From the NCBI GenBank assembly GCA_027315165.1, contig DAHUYN010000017.1:1-38467 (forward strand): a stretch of DNA of 38,467 bases, in the 5' to 3' direction. The notes under the pieces were generated by a model, which saw only the letters and a list, made by a program, of their open reading frames with translations, was not told the origin of the DNA and searched no databases. Origin of the DNA: Thermoplasmata archaeon. Its GTDB lineage: Archaea; Thermoplasmatota; Thermoplasmata; Lutacidiplasmatales; UBA184. The position numbers and the translations under genes were made by a program. Positions 1,915-22,141 of this stretch are shown here, one piece after another (the first letter of the stretch is position 1; the number at the start of each line of letters is the position of its first letter).

Positions 1915-2214
1915 CTATCCGCCGGAGAACGTCGAGATCACCACCAATCGGGCCGATCGGTGGAGCGGGGTGTCGAGCGGTACGGGGGTCTCGCCGAGAA
2001 GGACGAGGGACCCCTCCGCCGAGCCTCCAAGACGCCGGAGGAGCTCCCGAAGCAGGGTGCCGGGCATCACGTCCACCTCCCGGATCTCCCGGCGGTCGGC
2101 TCGGGTGAACTCGAGCGTTACCCGGAAGGGAACGGAAGCGCTGAGGGGGAGATTTTCCGACGCCGAGGGTGCCCCCTCGGCCTCCTTTGAACTCCCGCGA
2201 TGCATACGCACCAC
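1915..2214 (-). CDS. Ubiquitin-like small archaeal modifier / MoaD-ThiS-type protein
   Basis: The minus-strand frame encodes a beta-grasp protein whose core begins about residue 28 (VPFRVTLEFTRADRREIREV), continues with a helix rich in Leu/Arg, and ends in ARLVVISTFSGG. The terminal Gly-Gly directly before the TAG at 1915-1917 is the hallmark of SAMP, MoaD, ThiS and Urm1 proteins, which are adenylated by an E1-like enzyme and then serve as sulfur carriers or protein modifiers. The core is about 72 residues. The start is a puzzle: no ATG, GTG or TTG in frame lies between the end of tRNA-Ser at 2139 and the core; the only ATGs (2214, 2205) fall inside the tRNA gene. The next in-frame GTG, at 2076, would remove the first beta strands. 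It may use an unusual start, or be a gene whose 5' end was replaced by the tRNA. No E1 gene is in the window. Confidence 0.6.
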   Translation of the reverse strand: MVRMHRGSSKEAEGAPSASENLPLSASVPFRVTLEFTRADRREIREVDVMPGTLLRELLRRLGGSAEGSLVLLGETPVPLDTPLHRSARLVVISTFSGG

Positions 2215-2258
2215 CAGATCTCGAATCTGGCGCCTTGGCCGAGCTAGGCTACCTCAGC
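2139..2258 (-). tRNA. tRNA-Ser(CGA) with a T-loop intron
   Basis: Read on the minus strand: acceptor GCTGAGG (2258-2252), T8 A9, D-arm with GCC/GGC stem, anticodon stem CCAGA/TCTGG around loop TTCGAGA (anticodon CGA), a class II variable arm with GTGC/GCAT pairing, T-stem GGGAG (2196-2192) and TTCAAA (2191-2186). The sequence then departs from a tRNA for 33 bases and resumes at 2152 with T, the T-stem partner CTCCC (2151-2147), acceptor partner CCTCAGC (2146-2140) and discriminator G73 (2139). All stems pair completely after removal of the insert. CCA is not encoded. The class II variable arm, G73 and anticodon all point to serine. A TATA-like AAATAC sits 25-30 nt upstream. Confidence 0.88.
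2153..2185 (-). other. 33-nt intron in tRNA-Ser(CGA), T-loop position 59/60
   Basis: The insert begins GGAGGCCGAGGG, has a hairpin CCGAGGG/CCCTCGG with loop GGCA, and ends CGGCGTCGGAAAA. It lies between A59 and T60 of the T-loop; the exact cut can slide by a base or more because A residues lie on both sides. Its ends closely match those of the insert in tRNA-Ser(GCT) at 22041-22071. The exon triplet TTC (54-56) can pair with GAA near the 3' end of the insert, which could contribute to a relaxed bulge-helix-bulge for the archaeal splicing endonuclease; this folding is inference. Confidence 0.78.
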
Positions 2259-2281: not shown

Positions 2282-2289
2282 CGTATTTG
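2282..2289 (-). promoter_or_regulatory. TATA-like box of tRNA-Ser(CGA)
   Basis: The minus strand reads CCAAATACG, an AT-rich patch in GC-rich surroundings, 24-31 nt before the tRNA 5' end at 2258. Spacing fits an archaeal promoter. Confidence 0.4.
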
Positions 2290-21709: not shown

Positions 21710-22089
21710 GCGCGACCCCGACGCTCCCGGTCTCGCAGTGCCGGGGCTGTCACTCGCGCTTCCTCCCACGGCCCGGGCCCTGCCCGCGCTGCGGCGGGAC
21801 CGACCTCTTGGCGACGGAGCTGTCCGGCGTCGGAACCGTTCTCGCGGCCGTCGAGCTCCACAACCCCGCCGAGGGGTGGAGCGCCCCCCACCGTCTCGCG
21901 CTCGTCGAGGTGTCGGAGGAGGTCCGGGTGCTCGCGATCGCGAGCGAGGCGCTCCCCCGGATCGGAAGCCGCGTGCTCGTCCTCGTCGACGGTCCGCGCT
22001 ACCGGCTCTCGTCCGGGTCGGGGGAACGCGGGGAGGGGGATCTTCCGGCCGCCGGTCGGTCCCGGCCGCCCTTTGAACCCCCGAGGTGA
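21706..22089 (+). CDS. DUF35 (rubredoxin-like zinc ribbon plus OB-fold) thiolase partner
   Basis: 127 residues from a GTG at 21706 overlapping the thiolase stop. Residues 12-32 form a zinc ribbon, CRGCHSRF...GPCPRCGG, followed by an OB-fold with LSGVGTVLAAVELHNP, HRLALVEVSEEVRVLAIA and GSRVLVLVDGPRYRL. In archaea, DUF35 proteins sit in a complex between thiolase and HMG-CoA synthase and help pass acetoacetyl-CoA; no HMG-CoA synthase gene is adjacent here. The domain is complete by about residue 107. The last ~21 residues are polar and are encoded by DNA that is antisense to the 3' part and intron of tRNA-Ser(GCT). Confidence 0.8.
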   Translation: MSATPTLPVSQCRGCHSRFLPRPGPCPRCGGTDLLATELSGVGTVLAAVELHNPAEGWSAPHRLALVEVSEEVRVLAIASEALPRIGSRVLVLVDGPRYRLSSGSGERGEGDLPAAGRSRPPFEPPR

Positions 22090-22141
22090 AATCACCACAG
22101 GATTAGCAATCCTGCGCCTTACCAGGCTGGGCCATCCCCGC
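22027..22141 (-). tRNA. tRNA-Ser(GCT) with a T-loop intron
   Basis: On the minus strand: acceptor GCGGGGA (22141-22135), TG, D-stem GCC/GGC, anticodon stem CAGGA/TCCTG with loop TTGCTAA (anticodon GCT), variable arm GGTGA/TCACC, T-stem GGGGG (22082-22078), then TTCAAA (22077-22072). A 31-base insert follows. The tRNA resumes at 22040 with T, CCCCC (22039-22035), TCCCCGC (22034-22028), which pairs with the acceptor, and G73 at 22027. CCA is not encoded. Class II arm, G73 and anticodon agree with serine (AGY codons). The 3' part lies antisense to the end of the DUF35 gene. A TATA-like GCTTATGC is 46-53 nt upstream. Confidence 0.9.
22041..22071 (-). other. 31-nt intron in tRNA-Ser(GCT), T-loop position 59/60
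   Basis: The insert begins GGGCGGCCGGG and ends CGGCGGCCGGAAGA; GCCGG and CCGGC can form a hairpin with loop GACCGA. It follows TTCAAA and precedes T60, exactly the position used in tRNA-Ser(CGA). Both introns share the pattern GG-x-GGCCG at the 5' end and CGGCG...CGGAA-R-A at the 3' end, so they are probably related by descent. Confidence 0.8.

Follow-up and report, generated by a model that had tools for sequence, protein, structure and literature searches.

A tRNA-Ser(CGA) gene of a soil archaeon of the Thermoplasmata, probably of the order Lutacidiplasmatales, breaks off inside its T loop and resumes 33 nt further on. This raises the question whether the gene has been disrupted or carries an intron, and in the latter case how an endonuclease of a type regarded as restricted to canonical sites could remove it. 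The gene lies on the minus strand of the 38,467 nt stretch of contig DAHUYN010000017.1 that was analysed, here called the window.

The interrupted gene

The gene and its surroundings are laid out as follows:

2284..2288, minus strand: TATA-like AAATA, -30 to -26 of tRNA-Ser(CGA)
2186..2258, minus strand: 5' exon, positions 1-59, ending TTCAAA in the T loop
2153..2185, minus strand: predicted intron of 33 nt at 59/60; hairpin GCCGAGGG-GGCA-CCCTCGGC and ends that would form the bulge-helix-bulge (BHB)
2139..2152, minus strand: 3' exon with T60, CTCCC (3' strand of the T stem), acceptor CCTCAGC and discriminator G

The stretch from 2258 to 2139 gives a full-model match to RF00005 (model positions 1-71) at 43.9 bits, against a gathering score of 29. 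The extra bases fall within the T loop, and TTCGAGA in the anticodon loop specifies CGA. A first-pass annotation of this DNA had placed a 33-nt T-loop intron within the tRNA gene at 2139-2258 and located the missing T, CTCCC and CCTCAGC after these 33 bases. Both statements were borne out by the Rfam match, by perfect pairing of the T stem (GGGAG:CTCCC) and the acceptor (GCTGAGG:CCTCAGC), by an empty site in a paralog and by conservation among congeners. The paralog is the uninterrupted tRNA-Ser(UGA) of the same genome, which reads GGGAGTTCAAATCTCCCCCTCAGCG across the site and is a natural empty site; with the intron taken out, tRNA-Ser(CGA) has the paralog's sequence at the junction and is called by ARAGORN. 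As it stands the locus, like the rest of the window, receives no ARAGORN call, as had been anticipated for standard tRNA searches, and the host is indeed a high-GC Thermoplasmatota genome (72% GC in the window). The fold of the pre-tRNA is 5.2 standard deviations below that of dinucleotide shuffles. Runs of A at the junction leave the exon-intron border ambiguous by up to 3 nt if only the sequence is considered; the BHB geometry sets it at 59/60.

A complete tRNA-Ser(CGA) elsewhere in the genome, which the annotation had named as evidence against an intron, was not read among the 40 RF00005 matches of this 94% complete genome, and the two genes found only with our model R1 are Leu(UAG) and His(GUG), neither of them Ser(CGA). 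It should be noted that the assembly is fragmented (61 contigs), as are those of many relatives. Over 48 Ser(CGA) upstream regions, AT content peaks at -31 to -27 and at -38 to -36. These peaks and the AAATA we take to be a putative promoter; the upstream region is kept in a promoter-like way and its promoter function is predicted. UCG is the commonest serine codon in the EndA and RtcB frames of the genome (27 of 49, the RtcB frame being taken from stop to stop). A self-splicing group I or group II intron was rejected, as the insert measures 33 nt and Rfam at gathering scores matches nothing in the window but the tRNA.

Conservation of the insert

The 120-base query was compared with 101 genomes, of which 61, our own included, belong to the genus. 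Among the matches listed, 47 of the 61 carry the insert, 44 as whole copies and three (G034, G038 and G056) as partial copies that still contain the intron. Exact empty sites were found in three genus genomes (G033, G023 and G042), in G010 the contig stops within the gene and ahead of the T arm, and ten further genomes, with incomplete assemblies, showed no such gene among the matches listed. The congeners have the insert at the same base, with diverged sequence and a covarying helix, and intron length and hairpin are kept over the genus. Empty Ser(CGA) genes are also present in G061, G062 and G063, from other families of the order. In a tree of EndA the three congeneric empty sites lie at separate points within the genus, suggesting a loss or replacement at each of the three; the tree is of a single protein with 36 rows, long outgroup branches and some weak forks. 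A single gain without loss in the genus was rejected because the tree separates the empty sites, and replacement by an intron-less gene is as possible as loss.

Among Ser(CGA) genes (for instance 2186-2258, L064, L065 and L066) the variable arm is nearly frozen in the interrupted ones, 55 of 59 with distinct introns showing one of just two forms, whereas the three intron-less congeners have three different variable arms. Similar inserts were seen further afield. In another family of the class, L070 (genome G070) is a Ser(CGA) gene with a 58-nt T-loop intron. The Ser(UGA) genes L165, L169 and L175, from two Methanomassiliicoccales MAGs and one Thermoplasmata MAG, read by eye as having two introns, one in the anticodon loop and one of 24 nt in the T loop, the latter with a four-pair central helix. 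TRNA-like genes of Woesearchaeota (L138, L152 and L200) and Heimdallarchaeota (L171) have inserts at the same site and perhaps a further intron each, and they get no ARAGORN call even with the T-loop insert taken out.

Structure at the junctions

To compare the introns we cut them out by an expression that uses exon bases only. Some loci came from the BLAST query that includes the intron of the window, and the rest from an exon-only pattern (serine T stem, T loop and acceptor with a gap of 11-41 nt) scanned over named GTDB genomes. The scan gave at least 119 stretches, 80 of which (L134-L213) were analysed; these are mostly Thermoplasmata archaeon MAGs and include one Candidatus Lutacidiplasma silvani AcS3-62, a name that the Lutacidiplasmatales paper (PMC9287336) mentions in relation to type material. 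Rows L072 and L102 were rejected as pattern artefacts, and alignment A2 was set aside for spurious matches.

Pairing in register i+j=29 amounts to 74% over the 55 distinct 33-nt Ser(CGA) introns, against 35-49% in eight other registers, and to 73% over 26 Ser(GGA) introns, with 67% in the neighbouring register and 29-54% in the other seven. The covariation score of 50 aligned T arms was 0.298, compared with a shuffled mean of 0.147 and 0.066-0.195 with the partners slid, and none of 500 shuffles scored as high. Pairs changed on both sides numbered ten, a weak measure since 60 of the 500 shuffles reach it. Intron base -5 is G in all 81 introns (55 of 55 and 26 of 26), base -4 is a purine in all 81 and base -3 in 80, as expected if these bases pair with C56, U55 and U54. 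Opposite A57, base -6 is G in 51 of 55 Ser(CGA) and 25 of 26 Ser(GGA) introns, giving an A.G contact. Examples from other lineages have a standard fourth pair here, G57-C in Methanomassiliicoccales and in the 'Euryarchaeota archaeon' locus L160, and A57-U in three Woesearchaeota and one Heimdallarchaeote.

An endonuclease-compatible fold, whose absence the first-pass annotation would have counted against the intron, is present though weak. The Ser(CGA) bulges AA|G and AA|U fit two 3-nt bulges cut after the second base and the partner bases are conserved, giving a BHB-like structure, but the strict 3-4-3 form is only partly realised, the central helix having three standard pairs plus A57.G against the 4-bp helix of a strict BHB. 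Thermodynamics does not predict this helix: it is absent from the minimum-energy fold, lies 2.9 kcal/mol above it by nearest-neighbour energies, and the mean probability of the C56-G pair is 0.04-0.05; the support for the helix is comparative.

The insert is a real and conserved T-loop intron, almost certainly spliced. We put at about 0.93 the probability that the tRNA-Ser(CGA) gene is functional and that a protein-spliced intron of the archaeal BHB type interrupts it at 59/60.

Introns in other tRNA genes

The annotation had presented tRNA-Ser(CGA) as one odd gene and left its minus-strand orientation unmentioned. The interruption stands, but the gene is one of 13 in its genome with such an intron and part of a genus-wide pattern. 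RF00005 at E <= 10 gave 40 matches and model R1, built from 50 T arms, added Leu(UAG) and His(GUG), making 42 genes; the count, obtained by covariance-model searches, may have gaps. Altogether 21 introns were found in 19 of the 42 genes, 17 of them non-canonical:

T loop (13 of 42 genes): Ser(CGA), Ser(GGA), Ser(GCU), Leu(UAG), Arg(UCU), Arg(UCG), Glu(CUC), Gly(UCC), Asn(GUU), Asp(GUC), Gln(CUG), Lys(UUU) and His(GUG)
D arm (read by eye): Met(CAU) at C1:82151, Arg(GCG), Lys(UUU) and Leu(UAG)
Anticodon loop: Met, Tyr, Leu(UAA) and Trp(CCA), the last two read by eye

A 3-4-3 BHB can be drawn for each of the four D-arm introns, with Arg and Lys allowing more than one register. The Leu(UAG) gene had to be read by eye, since ARAGORN does not call it even when its T-loop intron is taken out, and Leu(UAA) is mislabelled Ser(UGA) by ARAGORN. 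Contact 57/-6 in the 13 T-loop introns is a standard pair in five, among them A57-U of His(GUG) and G57-C of Gln(CUG), A.G in five, and A.A, A.C and G.G in one each, so the fourth pair of the central helix is missing in eight of 13. One of the 13 is a second tRNA gene of the window, Ser(GCU) at 22027-22141 on the minus strand, likewise without an ARAGORN call:

22072..22141, minus strand: tRNA-Ser(GCU) 5' exon (Rfam 25.1 bits, below the cut-off)
22041..22071, minus strand: T-loop intron of 31 nt
22027..22040, minus strand: 3' exon

ARAGORN left ten of the 13 genes uncalled and misplaced the 3' ends of the other three, Arg(UCU), Glu(CUC) and Gly(UCC). The Rfam cut-off was reached by six of them, with full boundaries for Ser(CGA) only. 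A common finder thus misses or mis-ends 13 of 42 tRNA genes, which can distort tRNA counts.

Twelve T-loop introns were found in the stretches examined of the congener G029. Short ones (13-26 nt) number at least six in G062 and at least three in G061, counted over weak-scoring or long loci, the shortest being the least certain. The 13-15 nt T-loop introns of L069, L316, L317, L320 and L335 in G062 are barely above the number of bases that the motif requires. Among the matches listed, model R1 at E <= 0.01 matched 60 of the 61 genus genomes, with one to seven matches each, and only G062 among the 40 other genomes of the class; the R1 counts are too low, since the model favours serine T stems and was run with stricter filters. 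The census scan requires pairing of U54, U55 and C56 and misses T-loop introns without it. Run on 1.0 Mb of Markov-shuffled strand-bases as a null, it produced 14 hits, one of them with at least five helix pairs and a length of at least 20. Two census hits, L288 (minus strand) and L302, were judged false and removed, together with five non-tRNA hits (L013, L023, two in L025, and L028 on the minus strand). No significant sign of intron transposition between tRNAs was seen, the longest shared run being 13 nt (Asp of G000 and Gly of G029), a length that 10 of 100 shuffles reach.

Splicing endonuclease and ligase

The genome encodes both a splicing endonuclease (EndA) and a ligase (RtcB, 570 bits). 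The EndA frame is 353 aa long; its alignment with A. fulgidus EndA spans residues 25-334, and it matches the endA model TIGR00324 in two segments. For PF01974 our genome has two matches, and the 353-aa gene at the first of them carries both halves. Among the matches listed this family is found in 91 of 101 genomes, mostly twice, and in 52 of the 61 of the genus. From these matches we infer a two-domain, alpha-prime type enzyme. Its catalytic-half loop is one residue longer than that of M. jannaschii and six longer than that of A. fulgidus; the crenarchaeal loop is given as 15-18 residues (PMC12397907). A CSL-like insertion was rejected, as none is seen in the alignments and loop length is similar in 27 of 28 EndA. 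The EndA of G075 (L130) is the only one of the 28 aligned without a loop in the first part of the catalytic half.

According to two reviews, alpha-prime EndA has narrow specificity (PMC6379350, PMC4033280), and the A. fulgidus and T. acidophilum enzymes are listed as narrow (PMC6379350). Two reviews link the position and number of introns to the type of endonuclease: the alpha4 and alpha-prime2 enzymes of Euryarchaeota are associated with canonical BHB introns only (PMC4033280, PMC4090602). The tRNA genes of Euryarchaeota, mostly with alpha4 or alpha2 enzymes, are described as having a single intron, at the canonical position (PMC4090602), and multiple-intron tRNAs are given for two Euryarchaeota, M. 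kandleri and M. thermautotrophicus (PMC4033280). A further source differs, holding that homodimers can cut BHL-like motifs (PMC8707768). The A. fulgidus enzyme needs a strict 3-nt bulge (PMC12397907), and this the geometry proposed for Ser(CGA) satisfies.

Proposed mechanism and alternative explanations

In the precursor the T stem would serve as outer helix, U54 U55 C56 (and A57) would pair with intron bases -3 to -6 as a short central helix, and the intron would form the inner hairpin. The alpha-prime EndA homodimer would then cleave both 3-nt bulges behind their second base, at AA|G and at AA|U. RtcB, going by known pathways, would join the exons and restore the T loop UUCAAAU. Most tRNAs have UUCRA in the T loop, so that half of the BHB is already present, and any insert that closes with a G-purine-purine tract and two further bases could be spliced out. 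Such a ready half-motif would explain why 13 isoacceptors are interrupted at the same position. At somewhat better than even odds, we propose that the Lutacidiplasmatales alpha-prime EndA, which has no CSL- or ASL-like insertion, routinely removes T-loop introns, often with a three-pair helix (in serine tRNAs with the conserved A57.G), and that UUCRA as a ready half-motif makes the T loop a preferred entry site in about one third of the tRNA genes.

Could the gene instead be a disrupted pseudogene, with UCG decoded by wobble on tRNA-Ser(UGA)? The genome does have a Ser(UGA) gene, and Ser(CGA) was not seen in ten of the 61 genus genomes among the matches listed, from incomplete assemblies. Against this, the exons are nearly invariant over the congeners while the introns diverge, the helices covary and the upstream AT peaks are conserved. 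Moreover, among the 13 isoacceptors interrupted at the same position are the sole genes found for Asn, Asp and His, so the 13 cannot all be dead, and we regard a pseudogene as most improbable. Cleavage by a different or additional endonuclease of broad specificity seems nearly as improbable. It would accord with the restriction of alpha-prime enzymes to canonical BHB motifs described in PMC4033280 and PMC12397907, and a further gene may be missing from a genome that is 94% complete, but PF01974 matches this genome twice, and the gene at the first match has both halves in one 353-aa frame. Homodimeric enzymes are also stated to cut BHL-like motifs (PMC8707768), and A. fulgidus EndA to remove a 37/38 BHL intron from a full-length pre-tRNA (PMC6379350).

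A further idea concerns why the intron is kept and is compatible with a BHB-type intron at 59/60: rather than a neutral passenger, it may be a shield that breaks the 3' tRNA sequence used by integrases for attachment, as proposed by Randau and Soll according to the summary in PMC3293823. Site 59/60 does lie in the 3' part of the gene, the typical attachment region (PMC3293823), and intron length and hairpin are conserved over the genus. Searched for in viral contigs, however, the serine 3' end was found in no stretch, intact or interrupted, and the empty sites at three places of the EndA tree suggest a dispensable intron. We consider a shield unlikely, if less so than either a pseudogene or a second endonuclease.

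Comparison with known systems

Going by two sources (PMC8450103, PMC4033280, citing Sugahara 2008 and Fujishima 2010), Thermoproteales likewise have short protein-spliced introns at many tRNA positions, in many isoacceptors per genome, with some two-intron genes. Those introns are tied to an (alpha-beta)2 EndA with a specific loop (PMC8450103, PMC4033280), whereas here the enzyme appears to be alpha-prime without an insertion of such length, and they are reported to transpose (title of Fujishima 2010), of which we see no significant sign. The Asgard Atabeyarchaeia and Freyarchaeia also have many introns at non-canonical positions outside Thermoproteota, but belong to another phylum and have 92-95% of their tRNA genes interrupted, against 19 of 42 here (PMC11291895). 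Korarchaeum cryptofilum likewise combines a homodimer-type EndA with non-canonical tRNA introns, and in 2014 no other archaeon was said to have both an alpha2 enzyme and such introns (PMC4033280). Its enzyme is said to share the specific loop of the (alpha-beta)2 type (PMC4033280), however, while the loop here exceeds that of M. jannaschii by one residue. For the anticodon-loop introns of Euryarchaeota, of which our genome has four, the same enzymes EndA and RtcB are expected. Canonical introns differ in lying in the anticodon loop with a four-pair central helix, whereas the introns described here lie in the T loop and have three pairs in eight of 13.

Among the matches listed, in titles and beginnings of abstracts outside subscription journals and GtRNAdb, we found no description of T-loop introns in Thermoplasmatota, and the available part of the Lutacidiplasmatales paper (PMC9287336) holds no word beginning with 'intron'. 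The class of intron is known; what is new is the combination of an alpha-prime EndA, 13 T-loop introns in one genome and a weak central helix with A.G. If the proposed role of this enzyme is true, the limit on intron diversity would not be set by the subunit type of the endonuclease. With R1 matches in 60 of the 61 genus genomes and EndA in 52 of them, the lineage offers a direct test of the enzyme-type rule, with A57.G, A57-U and G57-C as natural variants together with empty sites.
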